Shown in pieces: positions 24,865 to 41,192 of a stretch of 47,643 nucleotides of DNA. Every line of letters begins with the position of its first letter. The stretch's first letter is position 1. The position numbers were made by a program, and so were the translations under genes. Origin of the DNA: Lachnospiraceae bacterium (GTDB lineage: Bacteria > Bacillota > Clostridia > Lachnospirales > Lachnospiraceae); assembly GCA_017626325.1 (NCBI GenBank), contig JAGAIZ010000057.1:1-47643 (forward strand), in the 5' to 3' direction. A model generated the notes under the pieces. It was not told the origin of the DNA. It made no database searches and saw only the letters and a program-made list of their open reading frames with translations.

Positions 24865-27123
24865 ATGCAGACAAAAGAGATATCTATCCGGTATAAAATC
24901 ATATACGCCGTTATCGTATGCTTCGCGGCGGTTATGCTGCTGCTTGCCGACGAGGGCTCTCAGCCGCTTCAATACAGCGGTTCCGGCCTGCAGCATTCTG
25001 TCGGCCTGATTGATTCGGAAGGCGCGCTGGTGATCCGGGATTCGGTGGCGAGAAGCGGTTCCATAGCCAATACGCCGCAATATGTGATGAATAGGGGCAC
25101 TTATCGTGTGGATATGGCTTATCTGGCGGACAAGAGCGGCTCGGCACTGGAGCTATGGGAGCAGGGAAGCAAGATTGCCGCATGGCCCATCCCGGCGGGA
25201 CAGGAAGAGATGAGCGTGGATTTCACGCTGTCTAAAGATGCGAAGCAGCTCCAGTTCAAAATCAACTACGGCGGAGAAGGGGAACTGACGATTCAGACCT
25301 TCACGCTGTCTCCTTATGGGATGTTTTATTCCGACACCTATTTTTTCCTGGCGCTCCTTGTGCTGATTCATGCGCTGGGATATCTGTATGTCAGAAGCGG
25401 CGCTAAATGGCTTACGCAGGAGAGAATGACGGATTTATGCGTGGTGCTCGGCACGGCTATTCTGGCTACTACGCCCATGATGCAGACGTATCTGTATAAC
25501 GGAGACGACCTGTGTTATCATCTGGCGCGGCTGGAGGGCTTAAAGGATGGCATATTAGACGGCCAGATACCGGTCAATATCCTGCCTGACAGCTTGAAGA
25601 ATAACGGTTACCTGAATGCCATGTATCCGTATCTTTTCCTGTATATCGGAGCGTTTCTGCGAATATGCAGAGTGTCGCTTGCGCTGTCCTATAAGACGCT
25701 GATCTTCCTGGCGAATCTGGGAAGCGCGGTCAGCGCTTATGTGGCCATGAAATCTATGGTACGGTCGCGCAGAAGCGTGATGCTGGCAGTAGTGCTGTAT
25801 ACGCTTATGCCGTATCGGTTTACGAACATCTTTTCCAGAGGGGATCTGGGAGAAACGCTTGCGCTGATTTTCTGGCCGCTTATCATCGCGGGTCTGTACC
25901 ATGTGATTATGGGGGACCGCAGCAAGTGGTATTATCTGGTCATTGGTTTCAGCGGCGCGCTGCAGAGTCATATTCTGAGCGTCGCCTTTGTGGCGGTATT
26001 CTGTGTGATCACCGCGCTTGTATATTGCGGGCGTATTATCAGGGAGAAACGGTATGTGGAGATCATGAAGGCAGCAGGACTTTCCATTCTCCTGAATATA
26101 TGGTATCTGGCGCCCTTCGTGACCTATTATTTTCAGGAAGACATCTGTAAGGACAGTCTCAGGTGGAGCGGCTATTTCGAACAGTCGATCAATCTGTCTA
26201 ATATGACGCAGAGCTTAAGCCTGTACAATAAACAATATTTTTCGTTGGGACTGGCGCTCTTAGGATGCCTTGGCATCGGCGTGATATATCTGTTCTGCGA
26301 GAGGAGAGACGGGAAGACGGATTCGGACGGCTATCTGCTGTATCTGTTCATCGCAGGCTGTATGCTGACCTTTATGACTACAGGGTATTTCCCGAACCGT
26401 GCGCTGCTGGCAAACAGCCTGTTTGAAAATATAGCGACGATGATCCAGTTCCCATGGCGGTTCTTAGGACCGGCGTCCGCCTGTATCCTGTTTGTGGGAG
26501 CAATCGGCCTTGCGCGTTCTGAGATTATTAAGCCTTACCGCAATCTTGTATTTGCCATGCTTGTGGGACTTAATCTGCTGATCATTATTTCCGTGCCGTC
26601 GGATAATAATCATATGCCTTATGAGAATGCCCAGGCGCTGGCGTCCAAAGGGCACGAGAGCAAGCTCGCGGCGAATATCGGGCTGTTCTATCCTCACGAG
26701 TGGCGTATAGACGGAGCCTCGGAGGAGAAGCTCACAAGCAGTGTGATCAATTCCGATATGAATACGATCACGATTTATGACTATCAGAAGAACGGTACGA
26801 AAGCGGCGGTATCCTACCGCGCTACAGACGATACGGGCTACATAGAACTGCCGATACAAAGCTATATCGGTTACCGTGCGTATGATGAGAATGGAGAACC
26901 TGTCGCGATAGCGCGCGGCGACGCTGCCCGAATGCGCTTTAAAGTCAGGGGAGACGGCCGGGAACACCGGATCTATGTGCGGTATGGTCCTGTGGCGGGA
27001 TTCGTGATTGCGAACGTGATTTCCGCTTTGACGCTGGCAGGCTGCGGCTGGCATTTGTGGCGGTCCGGAAAAAGAAAGCGTCTGCCGGACGAACGGATAT
27101 TGTCCGGCACTGATCAGGAGTAA
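24865..27123 (+). CDS. Large GT-C-like membrane protein (YfhO/6-pyruvoyl-tetrahydropterin-synthase-related type)
   Basis: The 752-residue protein has an N-terminal helix, an outer beta-rich region (about 30-155) that resembles a carbohydrate-binding fold, and then about ten membrane helices. After the second helix, GDDLCYHLARLEGLKDGI (about 213-230) and later MPYRFTNIFSRGDLGETLAL (about 314-333) are blocks shared by YfhO-like and PTPS-related membrane proteins. The role is probably glycosyl transfer outside the membrane, by analogy. ATG 24865 is favoured; a TTG at 24850 has no room for a ribosome site. It ends the plus-strand unit and overlaps pseG tail-to-tail by 10 bp. Confidence 0.72.
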   Translation: MQTKEISIRYKIIYAVIVCFAAVMLLLADEGSQPLQYSGSGLQHSVGLIDSEGALVIRDSVARSGSIANTPQYVMNRGTYRVDMAYLADKSGSALELWEQGSKIAAWPIPAGQEEMSVDFTLSKDAKQLQFKINYGGEGELTIQTFTLSPYGMFYSDTYFFLALLVLIHALGYLYVRSGAKWLTQERMTDLCVVLGTAILATTPMMQTYLYNGDDLCYHLARLEGLKDGILDGQIPVNILPDSLKNNGYLNAMYPYLFLYIGAFLRICRVSLALSYKTLIFLANLGSAVSAYVAMKSMVRSRRSVMLAVVLYTLMPYRFTNIFSRGDLGETLALIFWPLIIAGLYHVIMGDRSKWYYLVIGFSGALQSHILSVAFVAVFCVITALVYCGRIIREKRYVEIMKAAGLSILLNIWYLAPFVTYYFQEDICKDSLRWSGYFEQSINLSNMTQSLSLYNKQYFSLGLALLGCLGIGVIYLFCERRDGKTDSDGYLLYLFIAGCMLTFMTTGYFPNRALLANSLFENIATMIQFPWRFLGPASACILFVGAIGLARSEIIKPYRNLVFAMLVGLNLLIIISVPSDNNHMPYENAQALASKGHESKLAANIGLFYPHEWRIDGASEEKLTSSVINSDMNTITIYDYQKNGTKAAVSYRATDDTGYIELPIQSYIGYRAYDENGEPVAIARGDAARMRFKVRGDGREHRIYVRYGPVAGFVIANVISALTLAGCGWHLWRSGKRKRLPDERILSGTDQE

Positions 27124-28250
27124 AGCAGGGCATTAGCGATTCTTGCGGCTCCCTTTCCATCCAGAAAAGCTCTCATAGACCGGGAGCTTTTTTTGCGTGC
27201 CTCATAATCAACTGACATAGATGTCAGAAAAAGGAGGATGCGGTCAAGGATGGCAGAAGGCTGGAGGATATCGCCGGCGCAGGGAATCAGGCCGGAATTG
27301 GCGAAAGTCTCCACGGCGGTGCGCTGGTTGTCCGCCATCAGATAGCTGATTGTGGGGACGCCTACGGCGCATAGCTCGCACAGAGTCGTACCCCCAGCGG
27401 AAACTGCCAGGTCACAGGATGCCATAAGGGACGCCATATCGGAGACACCCTCGTGAATATGGATATGTCTGTTGGTCTTAGCAAGAGCGGCCAAAGCATG
27501 ATAGCGGCGGTTGGCGCGGCTGGTGAGAATGTGGTAGTCGTATGCCCGGAGAGGTTCCCATGATTCCTCCGAAGCGTCTGCCTGTAAAGGAGCGTAAATA
27601 CTTTGCAGCAGGCGCTGTGCCAGCCCATAGGGATCGGCGCCGCCGGTGGAGAGAAGGATATTCTTTACGACAGGGCGGACCGTGTAGGGCGGCTGCATAA
27701 ACTGCGCCCGAAGAGGCGTATATTGGGGACCTAATAATCTGCGGGAAGCGTTCCGGTAATAACTACAGGCCGCTTCCGTATCGTAATTGACGAGCAGATC
27801 GACATCACAGAGGAAGCTTCTTAAGTCGTCCAGATAAGCTACCCGGCAGCATTCCCGAAGGGCCGCAAAATAAGCCGGGGCGGCATAGTAGGAATCTATG
27901 AAAAGCCACGGCCTGCCGCAGTCCGCCGCAGGAAACCGGTTTAAGGATCCGGAAGAGTCCGGTTGATTCTTGTATACAAAAGGCGGCTCCTGCTTAATCA
28001 GAGGCAGCAGCAGCGGCAGTTCTGCATATAGGCTGCGGTAATCGCTGTGCAGGCAATGTATGTCGAATTCATCCGGCGTATTAAGGCGCTCCGTAAGGAG
28101 CGAGAGACTCGTCGTATCCGATATGATGAAGCGTACCGAAGCGCCCTGCGCTTTGCAGGCACGCGCGATTGCGAGACAACGCATGATATGTCCCGTGGCA
28201 ATCTTCTCATTTCCATCTGTTCTGAAATAAATAACAGGTAAGTCTGACAT
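27114..28250 (-). CDS. pseG: UDP-2,4-diacetamido-2,4,6-trideoxy-beta-L-altropyranose hydrolase, PseG
   Basis: PseG removes UDP from the diacetamido altrose sugar to supply PseI. The 378-residue protein has the GT-B-like hydrolase fold: FRTDGNEKIATGHIMRCLAIA (with the catalytic GHxxR His), YLDDLRSF, LLGPQYTPLR, LLSTGGADPYG and SAGGTTLCELCAVGVP. It is about 80-100 residues longer than compact PseG proteins. The additions lie at about 85-110 and 225-240, and there is no attached acetyltransferase domain. GGAAGGA precedes the ATG. It is on the opposite strand to pseBC and to pseFI, with its own promoter (28358-28386). Its 3' end overlaps the preceding gene by 10 bp. Confidence 0.92.
   Translation of the reverse strand: MSDLPVIYFRTDGNEKIATGHIMRCLAIARACKAQGASVRFIISDTTSLSLLTERLNTPDEFDIHCLHSDYRSLYAELPLLLPLIKQEPPFVYKNQPDSSGSLNRFPAADCGRPWLFIDSYYAAPAYFAALRECCRVAYLDDLRSFLCDVDLLVNYDTEAACSYYRNASRRLLGPQYTPLRAQFMQPPYTVRPVVKNILLSTGGADPYGLAQRLLQSIYAPLQADASEESWEPLRAYDYHILTSRANRRYHALAALAKTNRHIHIHEGVSDMASLMASCDLAVSAGGTTLCELCAVGVPTISYLMADNQRTAVETFANSGLIPCAGDILQPSAILDRILLFLTSMSVDYEARKKSSRSMRAFLDGKGAARIANALLYS
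27165..27194 (+). terminator. Plus-strand terminator within the 3' end of pseG
   Basis: AAAAGCTC and GAGCTTTT pair around an 11-nt loop and are followed by further T. It ends plus-strand transcripts of the polysaccharide operon inside the coding region of the opposite gene. Confidence 0.55.
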
Positions 28251-36231: not shown

Positions 36232-36287
36232 AGAAATCCCGGAGTGCCCGGCACGATAGTATCGTGCCGGATGCTTCGGGATTTCTG
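36232..36287. terminator. Long imperfect hairpin after lacZ
   Basis: Two 26-nt arms pair with four mismatches; the outer stem AGAAATCCCG/CGGGATTTCT and the inner stem CCGGCACGAT/ATCGTGCCGG are perfect, with a 3-nt loop. No T-tract follows on either strand, so it may be a processing or Rho-linked end of the lac transcript rather than a standard terminator. Confidence 0.5.
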
Positions 36288-36342
36288 AGTCTGAAAGCAG
36301 GAAAATATTTATTTTTGATCTTTTCCGGGGAAAAAATTAACC

Positions 36343-36369
36343 TTTCGCAAAATATTTCATTTTACGAAA
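36343..36369 (+). repeat. Left recombinase core site (inverted repeat IR-L)
   Basis: This 27-bp element is itself an imperfect palindrome of two recombinase-type arms around the 5-bp spacer ATTTC (36354-36358). It matches the reverse complement of 37782-37808 at 25 of 27 positions. Flanking CC and GG extend the palindrome to 31 bp. Confidence 0.85.
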
Positions 36370-36385
36370 GGCAAAAAAAGCAAAC

Positions 36386-36402
36386 TATACAAAATATGTA
36401 TA
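36386..36402. promoter_or_regulatory. Palindrome TATACA-N5-TGTATA
   Basis: A perfect 6-5-6 inverted repeat lies just inside the left core site, in the path of the leftward promoter-like sequence. It has the size of an operator for a dimeric helix-turn-helix protein; the nearby XRE regulator is a candidate binder. Confidence 0.4.
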
Positions 36403-36432
36403 TTATTTTAATGCATTTAGTGTAAAAGGGGC
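36397..36432 (-). promoter_or_regulatory. Candidate outward promoter at the left end of the invertible segment
   Basis: On the minus strand TTTACA is followed after 18 bp by TATACA, giving a plausible promoter that points left towards lacZ in the present orientation. After inversion it would point right towards XRE-pseF-pseI. Confidence 0.35.
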
Positions 36433-36558
36433 AAGTGTTTTTTACGTTTTATCCATTTTCGCTCTTTTTTTATCCCTTTTGAGACTTGTTTTTTGGTAAA
36501 AAAGATTTGATGCAGTTGTATTAGCCGTCAGAAATAACGTCATAAGGAGGAAGAGAAA

Positions 36559-37725
36559 GTGCCAAGAAGAGGAGAAAATATTTATAAAAGAAAGGACGGA
36601 AGATGGGAAGGGAGAGTCAGAGGACAGGGAAATCATAAGAAATACCGGTCTGTATATGGCAAAACCTATCGGGAAGTAAAGACGAAATTAGAGAGTATCA
36701 AATCAGAACAGATGCACGCAGAGGAGGAAGGGAGCAGGGGGAAGGAATGCTGTACGGTAACGGAGGCTGCAGGACTTTGGCTCAGATCACAGCGAAACGA
36801 CTGGAAACCCGGCACATATGCCGCTTATAAACAGACGCTGGAGAAATATATCCTGCCGTATCTGGGAGAAAAGAAGGTCGATAGTATTGACAATGAGACA
36901 ATGGAATGCTTTGCTGCGTATATCAGCAGCGCAAGAAGGAAGGGAAATCTGTCTTCAAATTATCTGTTTCAGATTTGCTCGGAGGTACGCAGAATACTTC
37001 TGTATATAAACAGGAGATACTGTTACGGAATGGCGGTGCCTGCTAACCCGGTTGCCCGAAGACGCACGGCGAAGACAGAACTGCCCGGAAAAGAGTGTCT
37101 GGCGCTTCTGGAAAATTACCTGGTGCGTAACTGCTCGGATGATACCTGTCTTGGCATTCTGATTGCCTTTCATACAGGGATACGTATTGGGGAACTAAGC
37201 GCACTGACGTGGAAAGATATTAATATCGAAGAAGCATATATCAGTATCAGAAGAAATATGATGCGGGTAAGAATCTGCCAGGAGAATGGAGAACGAAGGA
37301 AAGGTATAACGCAAGTCATAGAGCAGACACCGAAAACATCCGATTCTACGCGCGTCATTCCTATTTCGGCGCGGCTGCTTTCCAGTCTGAAAGCGCACTA
37401 TAAAGACGATGGACGATATGTTGTCAGCGGCACGAAGAATTTGTGGGCAGAACCGCGCACCATCCAGTACCGATTTCAAAGGATTCTGCAAAAATGCGGA
37501 ATAGAGCCTTTTCATTTTCATATGCTTCGTCACGCATTTGCAACCAGATGCGTGACCATGGGGCTGGATATCAAAAGTTTAAGCGAGATACTGGGACACA
37601 GCAATATTCAGATCACATTGAATCTTTATGTACATTCTGATATGCGGCAGAAGAAAAGACTGATGGAGCAGTACGATATGCTTCTGGAGAAAACGGCTGC
37701 TCCGACAGCTATAGCCGTCAAATAA
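36559..37725 (+). CDS. Tyrosine recombinase/integrase
   Basis: The 388-residue site-specific recombinase has an N-terminal arm-DNA-binding region (GENIYKRKDGRWEGRVRGQG, as in Tn916-type integrases), a SAM-like core-binding domain (about 65-160) and a catalytic domain from about 170. The active-site set is complete: R209 (HTGIRIGEL), K259 (TPKTSDSTR), H321 and R324 (FHMLRHAFATR), H347 (LGHSNIQ) and the nucleophile Y357 (LNLYVHS). It starts with GTG at 36559, after AAGGAGG. It stands alone between two inverted core sites, with no excisionase or other mobile-element genes. A DNA-inversion role is inferred from this arrangement; integrase of a degenerate element is the alternative. Confidence 0.93.
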   Translation: MPRRGENIYKRKDGRWEGRVRGQGNHKKYRSVYGKTYREVKTKLESIKSEQMHAEEEGSRGKECCTVTEAAGLWLRSQRNDWKPGTYAAYKQTLEKYILPYLGEKKVDSIDNETMECFAAYISSARRKGNLSSNYLFQICSEVRRILLYINRRYCYGMAVPANPVARRRTAKTELPGKECLALLENYLVRNCSDDTCLGILIAFHTGIRIGELSALTWKDINIEEAYISIRRNMMRVRICQENGERRKGITQVIEQTPKTSDSTRVIPISARLLSSLKAHYKDDGRYVVSGTKNLWAEPRTIQYRFQRILQKCGIEPFHFHMLRHAFATRCVTMGLDIKSLSEILGHSNIQITLNLYVHSDMRQKKRLMEQYDMLLEKTAAPTAIAVK

Positions 37726-37758
37726 TTTGTCTTAAAAAAATCTTGATCATTTCTGTCA

Positions 37759-37764
37759 TATAAT
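37759..37764 (+). promoter_or_regulatory. TATAAT box at the right end of the invertible segment
   Basis: This perfect -10 hexamer lies between the recombinase stop codon and the right core site and points out of the segment towards XRE-pseF-pseI. No -35 match is present at normal spacing; the region there is A-rich. Confidence 0.3.
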
Positions 37765-37781
37765 AAGCGTTTCGCAAATCT

Positions 37782-37808
37782 TTTCGTAAAATGAAATACT
37801 TTACGAAA
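37782..37808 (-). repeat. Right recombinase core site (inverted repeat IR-R)
   Basis: This 27-bp palindromic element has the spacer GAAAT, the exact reverse complement of the left site's ATTTC, and is a 25/27 inverted match to 36343-36369. An extra copy of one arm (TTTCGCAAAT at 37770-37779) lies directly upstream, so the right side is not a simple mirror of the left. Confidence 0.85.
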
Positions 37809-37941: not shown

Positions 37942-38379
37942 ATGAATCATCATGAAATTGCGGAATATATAACAGAACTTAGAATTACGCATGGCTATTC
38001 ACAGTTGGAACTTTCAGAAGCACTTGGAATTGGCAGACAGGCATATTCTCATTATGAGACGGGACGAAATCTGCCGACCTATCAGGCGATTGTCAAAATG
38101 GCAGAGTTGTATGGCGTATCGACGGATGAATTTATTTCCAGAATGCATTTGGATGCTGCTAAGCGGAGCGAATTGGAAGCATGCTTTAGAATTATGAAGG
38201 ATCAGGAGAAGGGGCATGCGGCGGCAGATATATTGTCGGTCGGGCAGCAGAAGAAGGAAGAGACGATGGCAGGCGGGGAAGCTTCCGCTATTAAGGCGGC
38301 AGTAGCCTATATGAGGAAGATGAGCGTTGAGAAACAGAAGAAGGTGGTGGAATTTATCAGATGGTATGGGGATGCATGA
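37942..38379 (+). CDS. XRE-family helix-turn-helix regulator
   Basis: The 145-residue protein has an N-terminal lambda-repressor-type HTH (about 5-60, with HGYSQLELSEALGIGRQAYSHYETGRNLPTYQ). After it comes a linker of about 40 residues and a C-terminal helical tail of about 40 residues ending in KQKKVVEFIRWYGDA, which may serve for dimerisation. It follows the recombinase unit and precedes pseF, all in the same direction. It could regulate the recombinase, pseFI or both; the palindrome at 36386-36402 is a possible target (inference). Confidence 0.9.
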   Translation: MNHHEIAEYITELRITHGYSQLELSEALGIGRQAYSHYETGRNLPTYQAIVKMAELYGVSTDEFISRMHLDAAKRSELEACFRIMKDQEKGHAAADILSVGQQKKEETMAGGEASAIKAAVAYMRKMSVEKQKKVVEFIRWYGDA

Positions 38380-38458
38380 GGGCGTGGGAACCGGACTGAG
38401 CAATTAATATAATGTAAGCGCTATGATAATTCGCGGGTAAATTCACGAAGGAAAAGTC

Positions 38459-38487
38459 TTGTTCATAATGATACGTTCTGTTATATT
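38459..38487 (+). promoter_or_regulatory. Promoter for pseF-pseI
   Basis: TTGTTC (38459-38464) and TATATT (38482-38487) are spaced by exactly 17 bp, about 45 bp before pseF. It shows that pseFI need not rely only on read-through from the recombinase region. Confidence 0.6.
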
Positions 38488-38534: not shown

Positions 38535-39230
38535 ATGAGTTCAATAGCAATCATCACTGCCAGAGGCGGCAGTAAAAGAATACCCCGCAAGAATGTGAAG
38601 CCATTCTGCGGCAAACCGATTATCACCTATTCCATCAAGGCGGCGCTTGACTCCGGTCTTTTTGATGAAGTCATGGTGTCTACGGAGGACGAAGAGATCG
38701 CGCAGATTGCCAGAGAGGCGGGCGCACAGGTTCCTTTTATGCGCAGCAGTGAAAGCGCGGGCGACTATGCTTCTACGGATGATGTGCTGTTGGAAGTGCT
38801 GGAAGCGTATCGGACGCAGGGAAGGACATTTGACTCTTTTTGCTGCCTTTATCCTACGGCTCCTTTTGTGACAGCAGAGAAACTGAAAACGGCGATGGCG
38901 CTTTTGGAGAAAGCGGATTCGGTGATGCCGGTGGTGCCTTTTTCCTTTCCGCCCCAGCGGTGTATGGTGTTAAATGAGGAAGGCGAGCTTCGTATGAAAT
39001 GGCCGGAACATGCTAAGACCCGTTCTCAGGATCTGGAGCCGTATTATCATGACTGCGGGCAGTTCTATTGCTGTAAGACAGAGCTTTTTTTACAATATAA
39101 AACGACTGACTTACCGCATATGGTGCCGGTGATCATGAGCGAGCTGGAAGTGCAGGATATAGATAATCCAGACGATTGGGAGATCGCGGAGCTTAAGTAT
39201 AAGAAGATGATTGCGGCGAATATGCCTTGA
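38535..39230 (+). CDS. pseF: CMP-pseudaminic acid synthetase (CMP-NulO cytidylyltransferase), PseF
   Basis: This 231-residue enzyme activates the nonulosonic acid with CTP to give the CMP-sugar donor. It has the CMP-sugar synthetase motif ITARGGSKRIPRKNVKPFCGK (8-28), VMVSTEDEEIAQIAREAGA, CCLYPTAPFVTAEKL and the C-terminal VQDIDNPDDWEIAELKYK. Length and spacing match PseF more than the longer NeuA proteins, and pseI follows directly. It has its own promoter and lies 155 bp after the XRE gene. A CMP-legionaminate enzyme is the main alternative, but the PseB/C/G/I set argues for pseudaminic acid. Confidence 0.93.
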   Translation: MSSIAIITARGGSKRIPRKNVKPFCGKPIITYSIKAALDSGLFDEVMVSTEDEEIAQIAREAGAQVPFMRSSESAGDYASTDDVLLEVLEAYRTQGRTFDSFCCLYPTAPFVTAEKLKTAMALLEKADSVMPVVPFSFPPQRCMVLNEEGELRMKWPEHAKTRSQDLEPYYHDCGQFYCCKTELFLQYKTTDLPHMVPVIMSELEVQDIDNPDDWEIAELKYKKMIAANMP

Positions 39231-39294: not shown

Positions 39295-40344
39295 ATGAAG
39301 AAAGAATTCAGAATCGGCAGCAGAATGATCGGCGAAAATTCGCCCTGCTTCTGTGTGGCGGAGATGTCCGGCAATCATTTGAAGGATTATAACAGAGCGG
39401 TAGAGATTATCCATGCGGCGAAGGAAGCCGGAGCGGATGCCATCAAACTGCAGACCTACACGGCGGACAGCCTGTCCATAGATTGTGATAACGAGTATTT
39501 CCGGATTCACGGCGGATTGTGGGATGGTATGACGGAATATAAGCTGTATCAGGAAGCAAGCACCCCTTGGGAGTGGCAGCCGAAACTGCAGGAGGTGGCG
39601 GCAGGGCTTGGGCTGGAATGCTTTTCTTCTCCGTTTGACTTTGCGTCAGTGGATTTTATGACGGAGCTTGCTATGCCTGCCTATAAGATCGCTTCTTATG
39701 AGATCAATGATATACCGCTTATCCGCAAGGTGGCGAAGCTGCATAAGCCTGTTATCTTCGCAACAGGGGTTGCGCGGGCGGAGGATATTGAGCGGGCGCT
39801 TCAGGTATGTAAGGAAGAGGGAAATGAGGAGATCATGCTCTTGAAATGCGTATCGGCTTATCCCACACCCTATGAAGAGATCAATCTGAACATGATTCCC
39901 GCCCTGGCGAAGACTTATGACTGTCTGGTAGGGCTTTCCGATCATTCTATGGGAAGCGTGGTTCCGGTAGGGGCGGTTCCGTTAGGTATCAAGATGGTGG
40001 AGAAGCATCTGACGCTGCGCCGCGCGGATGGAGGCCCTGACGGCGCTTTCTCCATGGAACCGGAGGAATTTAAGGAGATGGTAGATCATATCCGGATTCT
40101 GGAGAAGGCTTTGGGACAGTCAGAATATAAGCTGACCAAGAAGCAGGAGAAGGAGCGCGGCGGTTCCCGGTCTCTCTTCGTCGTCAAAGATATCAAGGCG
40201 GGGGAGAAGATCACGCCTGAAAACGTGCGCTCGATTCGTCCCAATGCGGGGCTTCATACGATGTATTATGAGGAAGTGATGGGAAAGACGGCGGCGTGTG
40301 ATATCGCGATGGGAACGCCGCTTGCGTGGGAATTGATGCGTTGA
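39295..40344 (+). CDS. pseI: Pseudaminic acid synthase, PseI
   Basis: PseI condenses phosphoenolpyruvate with the 2,4-diacetamido altrose sugar to make pseudaminic acid. The 349-residue protein has a NeuB-type barrel (residues 1 to about 280: GADAIKLQTYTADSL, FSSPFDFASVDFM, PAYKIASYEINDIPLI, GLSDHSMG) and a C-terminal SAF/antifreeze-like domain (FVVKDIKAGEKITPENVRSIRPNAG). The SPFD region and the ASYEI block are those of PseI rather than sialic or legionaminic acid synthases. GGAGG lies a little far from the ATG. It is 64 bp after pseF. Confidence 0.94.
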   Translation: MKKEFRIGSRMIGENSPCFCVAEMSGNHLKDYNRAVEIIHAAKEAGADAIKLQTYTADSLSIDCDNEYFRIHGGLWDGMTEYKLYQEASTPWEWQPKLQEVAAGLGLECFSSPFDFASVDFMTELAMPAYKIASYEINDIPLIRKVAKLHKPVIFATGVARAEDIERALQVCKEEGNEEIMLLKCVSAYPTPYEEINLNMIPALAKTYDCLVGLSDHSMGSVVPVGAVPLGIKMVEKHLTLRRADGGPDGAFSMEPEEFKEMVDHIRILEKALGQSEYKLTKKQEKERGGSRSLFVVKDIKAGEKITPENVRSIRPNAGLHTMYYEEVMGKTAACDIAMGTPLAWELMR

Positions 40345-40545: not shown

Positions 40546-40908
40546 TTGGAGATAATTTTTTATAAAGACAGAAATGGGAGATCGGATATTGTTGATTATC
40601 TGGATGAATTGAAGAAGAAAATGGTAACGAGTAAGGACGCTAAAATTAATCGGGAAAAGATTCTGGCATATCTTGCGGCATTATCCCGGTATGGAGCCAG
40701 AATCGGTCAGCCAATGGTTAGGCATATTGAAGGGGATATATGGGAATTGCGTCCTTTGAAAAAGAGAATATTTTTCTTTTATTGGAAAGAGAATAAAATT
40801 GTATTGCTGCATTATTATATTAAAAAGTCGCAGAAAATGTCCGTTAGAGAATTTGAAAAAGCAAAAAGAAATCTAAAAGATTTTTTGGAAAGGAATGAAT
40901 CTTTATGA
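40546..40908 (+). CDS. HigB/Gp49-like toxin (RelE superfamily)
   Basis: The 120-residue basic protein has the Gp49/HigB pattern: IIFYKDRNGRSDIVDYLDEL at the start, then RHIEGDIWELRPLKKRIFFFYW with the W-E-L-R-P core, LLHYYIKKSQKMSVREFEKAKRN near the end. These proteins are ribosome-associated mRNA endonucleases. It uses a TTG start at 40546, with GGGAAGG seven bases before it; no ATG is available. It overlaps the antitoxin gene by four bases (ATGA), the toxin-first order usual for higBA. Confidence 0.9.
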   Translation: MEIIFYKDRNGRSDIVDYLDELKKKMVTSKDAKINREKILAYLAALSRYGARIGQPMVRHIEGDIWELRPLKKRIFFFYWKENKIVLLHYYIKKSQKMSVREFEKAKRNLKDFLERNESL

Positions 40909-41192
40909 AAGAAATCAATACACTTGCGGATTATATGAACGATGAAAACAGGGTCAGTCCGGAAGAACGGCAGAGGATAAATTTCGAAGTGGAACTCATT
41001 GGAAAAATTATTGAGGCGCGGGAACAAAGAGGCTATTCACAAAGAGATTTAGCAAGGCTAAGCGGCGTGAAGCAGCCTGCAATCGCTAGGCTGGAAAGTA
41101 TGAGGTCAACGCCGCAGATAGATACTGTGTTAAAGCTGCTGGCACCGCTTGGATATACATTAACCATTGTTCCGTTTGAGCCACAACGATAA
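40905..41192 (+). CDS. HigA-like antitoxin (XRE family)
   Basis: The 95-residue protein has an XRE helix-turn-helix at about 35-90 (QRGYSQRDLARLSGVKQPAIARLESM) and should neutralise the toxin and repress the operon by binding the palindrome over its promoter. It starts inside the toxin stop codon. The unit lies between pseI and a convergent ATP-grasp gene. Confidence 0.9.
   Translation: MKEINTLADYMNDENRVSPEERQRINFEVELIGKIIEAREQRGYSQRDLARLSGVKQPAIARLESMRSTPQIDTVLKLLAPLGYTLTIVPFEPQR

Follow-up and report, generated by a model that had tools for sequence, protein, structure and literature searches.

A 1466-bp segment of a Lachnospiraceae genome (positions 36343-37808) is, with good confidence, a self-contained invertible promoter that encodes its own recombinase. 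It lies in the window, the whole stretch of 47,643 nucleotides analysed here, and, judged from its sequence and those of its relatives, the cassette very probably acts as an on/off switch that carries the gene for its own flipping enzyme. The earlier note had proposed such a self-encoded DNA inversion switch, and the proposal is strongly supported by evidence from the recombinase family, comprising flips between sister loci, matched 7-bp site centres, outward promoters and contig ends at the sites. For the locus in the window itself we infer the inversion, the promoter, the assignment of the ON and OFF forms and the genes that are regulated. Gut Clostridia would gain from this a clear class of self-encoded phase switch, and the core pattern, promoter and recombinase together would allow such switches to be predicted from sequence. 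Should the gated genes prove to be glycan genes, the surface coat would change at random, with a bearing on phage attack, immune recognition and colonisation. Sister loci in which the switch stands before a TnpB-like gene and a conserved RNA would link DNA inversion to a possible RNA-guided regulator.

The segment is bounded by a left core recombination site at 36343..36369 (plus strand; TTTCGCAAAA TATTTCA TTTTACGAAA), examined by inverted-repeat search, shuffles, pair alignment and a genome pattern scan, and a right core site at 37782..37808 (minus strand), which is inverted relative to the left one and carries the same 7-bp centre on the minus strand. The inverted-repeat search of the window returned a 27-nt pair matching at 93% of positions (25/27) with 1412 nt between the sites, exactly where the earlier note had placed it. 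That each site is a palindrome of two arms around a centre was likewise borne out: read from the sequence, the arms around a 5-bp centre are TTTCGCAAAAT/ATTTC/ATTTTACGAAA on the left and TTTCGTAAAAT/GAAAT/ACTTTACGAAA on the right, with an arm symmetry of 10/11 in each site. The centres ATTTC and GAAAT are reverse complements as had been claimed, and their extent could be refined, the part that is invariant within pairs being 7 bp long (TATTTCA in the window) and not 5 bp. Between the two sites there are two mismatches, both in the outer arm. A pattern built from both sites had 2 matches in the window, 100 dinucleotide-shuffled versions of which averaged 0.00 matches, and a relaxed core pattern found 4 sites, forming 2 pairs, in the window's own genome (3.1 Mb in 88 contigs, 92% complete), where the reversed-pattern control gave 0 matches. 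Each of these two pairs encloses a recombinase of the family, the second being 39% identical to the window's. An extra half-site, TTTCGCAAA, lies directly beside the right core site (window 37770-37778). On the minus strand, the left core site and its outer T-run (36340-36372) read outward as a terminator-like hairpin that may help to silence the promoter in the assembled orientation; a terminator scan of the region overall was near background (3 found vs 1.9).

The gene between the sites encodes a 388-aa tyrosine recombinase of the integrase type with a GTG start (36559..37725, plus strand), identified from the ORF list, PF00589, NCBIfam profiles, a structure-sequence search and alignment. 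It is the sole non-overlapping ORF of at least 70 aa between the window's sites, in agreement with the previous description of a lone recombinase between inverted sites. The protein matches PF00589 with 94.5 bits (cut-off 27.1), and a search of its own genome with this family listed 8 matches. Residues R209, K259, H321, R324, H347 and Y357, the catalytic residues of tyrosine recombinases (R, K, H-x-x-R, H, Y), are invariant in 21 aligned rows, the window included; with the ORF also intact, the claim that all catalytic residues are present stands. The N-terminus is also conserved in this 21-row alignment. The closest solved structures by sequence are the XerC-like recombinase 4a8e, the Int protein (6emy, 6en0, 6emz) and XerA (5hxy). 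The equivalog cut-offs for XerC (74.3 of 335.15 bits) and XerD (58.4 of 329.6 bits) were not reached, nor were those for the FimB/FimE invertases (PRK09871, 45 of 222 bits; PRK09870, 23.8 of 221 bits).

Matches to this family at E<=1e-38 were found in 38 of 77 genomes of the genus at 51 loci, including that of the window, and together with 2 loci from other families of the order they make up the 53 loci studied. At E<=1e-75, among 348 genomes drawn from the bacterial family, a match occurred in the window's own genome only. An inverted pair of at least 19/22 within 900 bp is present at 40 of the 53 loci, and 156 shuffled flanks peaked at 18/22; perfect pairs lie farther out, around larger segments, at 2 further loci, which brings the loci with an inverted pair to 42. 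In one of these, G046, the inverted repeats are long and differ in kind, so that core pairs are present at 41 of 53 loci, and G046 is left out of the comparison of core pairs. In strand exchange by tyrosine recombinases the centres must match within a pair and are free to vary between pairs. The 41 pairs contain 29 different centres and 52 within-pair mismatches, 0 of which fall in the central 7 bp. Detection of pairs by similarity favours agreement generally, but we saw no reason for it to favour the centre over the arms, and the lack of any mismatch in these variable 7-bp centres reads as the mark of the strand-exchange region. The mismatches are divided into 38 in the outer arm and 14 in the inner arm, end positions included, and the right site of G030 is without its outer arm.

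No pair was found at G003 and G083a, in each of which one site remains, at G010b and G085b, each with one site and a contig end near the element, or at G069, which starts at a contig end. The pair search also gave nothing at G092b, G093, G033, G081, G010a and G053, and a closer search revealed one degenerate site at G092b. By eye, no promoter is visible at G092b, and G003 has lost one site, yet a TTGACA-17-TATAAT promoter there faces the operon. One genome of the set carries identical recombinases at two places (G097a/b; L101 and L102, on G097:C2 and G097:C20), and the DNA downstream of them is up to 98% identical over 3.3 kb.

The flipped arrangement, which the earlier note had suggested seeking in related genomes, was looked for and found between orthologous loci of sister species in the sister clade, not in the window's clade. 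Each of the 53 loci was oriented by its recombinase, and comparison of their outer flanks produced 234 match classes. Matches in the same direction comprise 135 right-right and 26 left-left classes, and in 68 classes a left flank matches a right flank as the reverse complement, two of them self-matches, leaving 66 between loci. Left-right matches in the same direction amount to 4 classes (3 from the window's pse genes and 1 within G053), and a reversed right-right match to 1. In whole-locus alignments the recombinase block runs one way and both flanks the other way for G084b/G092b, whose flanks are mostly 85-92% identical, and for G003/G082, G003/G087 and G003/G086b. G002/G084b is inverted likewise with a long gap on one side, and the inversion is visible on one flank in G064/G087. 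The breakpoints fall at the core sites where these survive, and one partner of each of the closest flipped pairs (G092b or G003) has a lost or degraded site. On the maximum-likelihood tree, with every other row scored as not flipped, the six flipped loci need 6 changes, at least 5 of which are forced by well-supported branches. Together, these comparisons indicate repeated flipping of the sister-clade cassette at unchanged positions.

In the window's own clade, comparison of the flanks of its loci revealed no flipped locus, the window being represented by one assembly in one orientation. Conserved-flank matches in this clade are on the same side and in the same direction, except for the window's pse genes, whose counterparts in G083b, G084 and G092 lie on the left flank. 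Because no flip was found there, inversion in the window's clade is argued from the family. Contig ends were also examined for 71 distinct loci, the 53 plus 18 further TnpB-like loci, and in 4 of them a contig ends at most 3 bases from a core site (G094:C128, G034:C64, G034:C121 and G015:C70). Such ends are expected if both orientations were sampled, and other repeats could also cause them. The loci with contig ends at a core site are L107, L124, L110 and L050.

Weighted scoring for sigma-A promoters, with 60 shuffles for each stretch, was applied to the DNA inside the sites. Outward from the left site the mean z was 2.83, and in 27 of 42 elements no more than 3 of the 60 shuffles scored as well, as against control values of 3/42 toward the recombinase and, at the other end, 2/40 outward and 0/40 inward. 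An exact TTGACA-17-TATAAT lies 56-90 bp from the site in 12 elements. Most of the support for the promoter stems from the sister clade. None of these 12 belongs to the window's clade (11 rows, 10 of them pair-bearing), in which 2 of the 10 pass the 3-of-60 mark, namely the window and G078. The window's own candidate, a weak one, is TTGCCC-18-TAAAAT at 36405..36434 (minus strand), pointing out over the left site, and 2 of its 60 shuffles scored as well; a second scan rated it as a 9/12 match and found 3 promoter-like sites in the region vs 5.2 in shuffles.

Repeat counts revealed further elements inside the segment. A candidate arm-type binding site, GTCA-N8-GTCA (36527..36542, plus strand), lies just 5' of the recombinase start, and a second candidate, GTCA-N8-GTCT (37717..37732, plus strand), overlaps the recombinase stop in the same orientation as the first. 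In the family, 33 of 42 elements have GTCA-type direct repeats in the 75 bp preceding the recombinase start (0.5 expected) and 34 of 42 have them around or after the stop (1.3 expected), and those at both ends point the same way. These repeats may bind the N-terminal domain of the recombinase, whose conserved N-terminus may likewise hint at an arm-binding fold of the lambda-integrase type.

In the mechanism that we propose, the recombinase would bind the palindromic core sites at both ends of the segment, and its N-terminal domain would probably also bind the internal arm-type GTCA repeats. Strand exchange within the identical 7-bp centres would flip the segment from 36343 to 37808, and since these centres lack symmetry and face opposite ways the predicted product is an inversion and not an excision. 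The promoter, placed between the left site and the recombinase, would point outward. In the assembled orientation it would face the end of a GH2 gene and a hairpin, leaving the right-hand genes OFF; after inversion it would face an XRE regulator and pseF-pseI, turning them ON, with the XRE regulator as the first gene to receive the promoter. At most of the loci that have a clear operon, among them the window's, the assembly shows the recombinase pointing toward the operon and the promoter away from it, a form that we read as the probable OFF state.

Upstream of the cassette lie a GH2 beta-galactosidase (ORF and Pfam) and what reads, from the sequences, as a sugar ABC transporter. The inverted-repeat search located a strong inverted repeat (36232..36286) between the GH2 gene and the left site, which may hinder outward transcription while the segment is in the assembled orientation. 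The first gene past the right site encodes an XRE-family HTH regulator (37942..38379, plus strand; ORF, Pfam); it sits between the right site and pseF and was missing from the earlier note. The possible targets behind it are pseF, for pseudaminic acid cytidylyltransferase (38535..39230, plus strand; TIGR03584, 288.7 bits, cut-off 205.7), and pseI, for pseudaminic acid synthase (39295..40344, plus strand; TIGR03586, 460.5 bits, cut-off 340.25). A pseG gene at 27114-28250 also scores above its NCBIfam cut-off, and the ORFs from 3292 to 27123 appear by eye to form a surface polysaccharide cluster. Of the former statement that the cassette adjoins pseFI in a surface-glycan region, pseF and pseI were confirmed and the glycan setting looks right by eye, but the XRE gene intervenes before pseF. 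Two small genes beside pseI (window 40546-41192) resemble by eye a toxin-antitoxin pair of the HigB/HigA type.

This gene order gives weight to an alternative in which the segment inverts and the XRE regulator alone is switched directly, while pseF-pseI are driven by a promoter of their own and feel the switch indirectly, if at all, and we rate this as a serious contender at somewhat below an even chance. The gene next to the site is that of the XRE regulator, a gap of about 155 bp lies between this gene and pseF, the gap contains a weak promoter-like match (38442-38469), and in G083b, G084 and G092 pseF-pseI are found elsewhere, on the left flank of another element; in several relatives, however, the first gene behind the site is a surface-glycan gene. 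Since the XRE gene comes first behind the site and pseF may have its own promoter, switching of the glycan itself is a possible outcome of the flip.

That the segment inverts at all would be denied if it were a small mobile element or prophage remnant, with an integrase and with inverted sites that are merely the element's ends, a view to which we give very little credence. It draws on a protein of phage-integrase type with relatives in viral contigs and in phage and plasmid records, and on G097, which carries an identical recombinase twice with near-identical downstream DNA. However, the window's recombinase is alone between its sites, the segment has no other mobility gene between its ends, those ends are inverted and not direct repeats, an outward promoter is common in the family, and the orientation of the cassette changes at orthologous places. 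The neighbours also speak against a mobile element: ten genes, first or second on the operon side, were scanned, and the 7 with a family comprise 4 surface-glycan genes (a glycosyltransferase, CpsB/CapC, a LytR-CpsA-Psr protein and a polysaccharide flippase, the last adjoining G081, a locus without a pair), one IspD-like gene and two with a Cas12f1-like TNB domain (TnpB-like, a transposon-derived family). The other 3 had no family, and packaging or conjugation families were absent among the ten. It is also improbable, though less so, that the switch is locked in the window's genome, the arm mismatches or another defect blocking inversion so that the sites only bind the recombinase. Relatives with a single site (G003, G083a) or one degenerate site (G092b) do look locked, and the window's sites have 2 arm mismatches; against this, the 7-bp centre is perfect in the window, mismatches in the arms are frequent across the family (52 over 41 pairs), and the recombinase gene is open with its catalytic residues in place. 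An invertible promoter with its own recombinase remains our preferred reading.

Behind many of the related cassettes lies a TnpB-like gene. Such a protein is encoded on the operon side at 15 of 53 loci, with a 16th beside G014, and its gene is the first behind the switch in 12 of the 15. The TnpB-like loci are L093:9809-11110 with 15 further of the 53 loci, and L107-L124. At E<=1e-40, 24 of 77 genomes contain 36 matches to this family between them, and the window's genome has none. A profile built from 14 of the proteins hits PDB chains of Cas12f and TnpB (best 4.9e-10; TnpB 8bf8 0.0018), and NCBIfam guided_TnpB gave 51.3 bits vs a cut-off of 100. The Asp of the NADYNAA motif of 7wju aligns with Lys in the 14-row consensus, and by eye 0 of 14 rows have the RuvC motif I Asp, the motif II Glu or the NADYNAA Asp, which are the catalytic residues; the zinc-finger cysteines are kept. 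A conserved block 3' of the gene (18 of 34 copies used) has an RNAalifold value of -20.8, whereas 30 column shuffles, which are a lenient control, gave -1.0 (sd 1.3), and 12 of its 22 base pairs are changed on both sides. Rfam returned miRNA matches only, below gathering scores, for this TnpB-linked RNA. A target search in 10 genomes with a 15-mer of the conserved tail, allowing one mismatch, gave no sensible target; its 17 places were 12 RNA loci by our own reading and 5 others, against 3 for the control. The TnpB-like proteins and the structured RNA are possibly RNA-guided regulators, and they resemble the TldR regulators of flagellin (excerpt of PMC13418256).

Upstream of 34 TnpB-like genes, a recombinase of the family is present in 17 cases, 13 directed toward the gene (one of them, G087c3, matched in part only) and 4 away. 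Among the other 17, some of which are at contig ends, 5 have an inverted core pair without a family recombinase, with the promoter toward the gene in G082c1 and G033c19 and away in G033c13, G087c1 and G085c4. Such recombinase-less segments are probably satellite switches acted on in trans. The recombinase-less promoter segments between core sites are L114, L121, L122, L123 and L108. A broader picture, which we offer tentatively and consider rather unlikely to hold as a whole, would make the cassettes genus-wide self-encoded stochastic glycan switches. In the sister clade they would gate a nuclease-dead TnpB-derived RNA-guided regulator that heads the operon with a guide-type RNA, a flip releasing a factor that silences or selects surface loci, and the XRE regulator of the window would occupy the same place in the circuit.

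A recombinase inside the segment that it flips is known already from Hin and from the hsdS locus. The Hin system combines short inverted sites with an outward promoter for a surface structure; the cassette is Hin-like in layout and would work like Hin but is not a Hin-type member, because its recombinase is of the tyrosine type by PF00589. Hin is a serine recombinase, whereas the window's enzyme belongs to the tyrosine type, has the layout of an integrase and probably has arm-type sites. The genes for FimB/FimE and for RecV sit outside the segments that they invert, whereas the window's recombinase gene lies inside. FimB/FimE and the RecV of C. difficile are otherwise comparable, since they too are of the tyrosine type and the segments that they invert have short inverted repeats on either side (for RecV, excerpt of PMC5903667). 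The same excerpt describes a recombinase gene as occasionally lying within the invertible segment, with Hin and the hix sites of the Salmonella flagellar switch as the example, an arrangement shared by the window (PMC5903667). It also describes the invertible promoters of Bacteroides capsules, in which inversion takes place before polysaccharide loci and one serine master recombinase, Mpi, serves at least thirteen regions (PMC5903667). The sister loci here have a Mpi-like trait in that they include promoter segments without a recombinase; Mpi acts on many regions, whereas the core pattern in the window's genome surrounds two self-encoding cassettes only. Like the window, the pneumococcal hsdS locus has its site-specific recombinase PsrA/CreX encoded within the invertible locus (excerpt of PMC11868660), and PsrA is a tyrosine recombinase (excerpt of PMC7096588), but that locus shuffles coding segments of a restriction subunit whereas the window's cassette would flip a promoter. 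A survey of gut invertons places invertase genes near invertons and generally not where these could regulate them (excerpt of PMC11892184). Among open-licence titles and the starts of abstracts, we found none that described such an arrangement for Lachnospiraceae or any other Firmicutes.

More distant relatives of the recombinase are found at 23-43% identity in viral contigs (80 kept of 168), in 1555 phage records, all at <60% identity, and in 446 plasmid records. Inverted pairs of at least 20/22 are present in 11 of 41 distant homologs (37 of these 80 viral loci and 4 plasmid loci). Two of the loci, L225 and L228, lie on megaplasmids of Enterococcus gilvus and E. raffinosus, in which a 34-37% identical integrase precedes runs of surface or secretion genes. 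In E. gilvus the integrase stands before WxL surface genes with a best pair of 18/22, which is not above chance, and the record, when compared for flipping, matched itself alone. The three E. raffinosus records all have the element on one strand, with the match interrupted by about 1.5 kb of extra DNA in 2 of the 3; here the pair is 22/22, and the recombinase lies before a run that includes signal peptidase and glucosaminidase genes.
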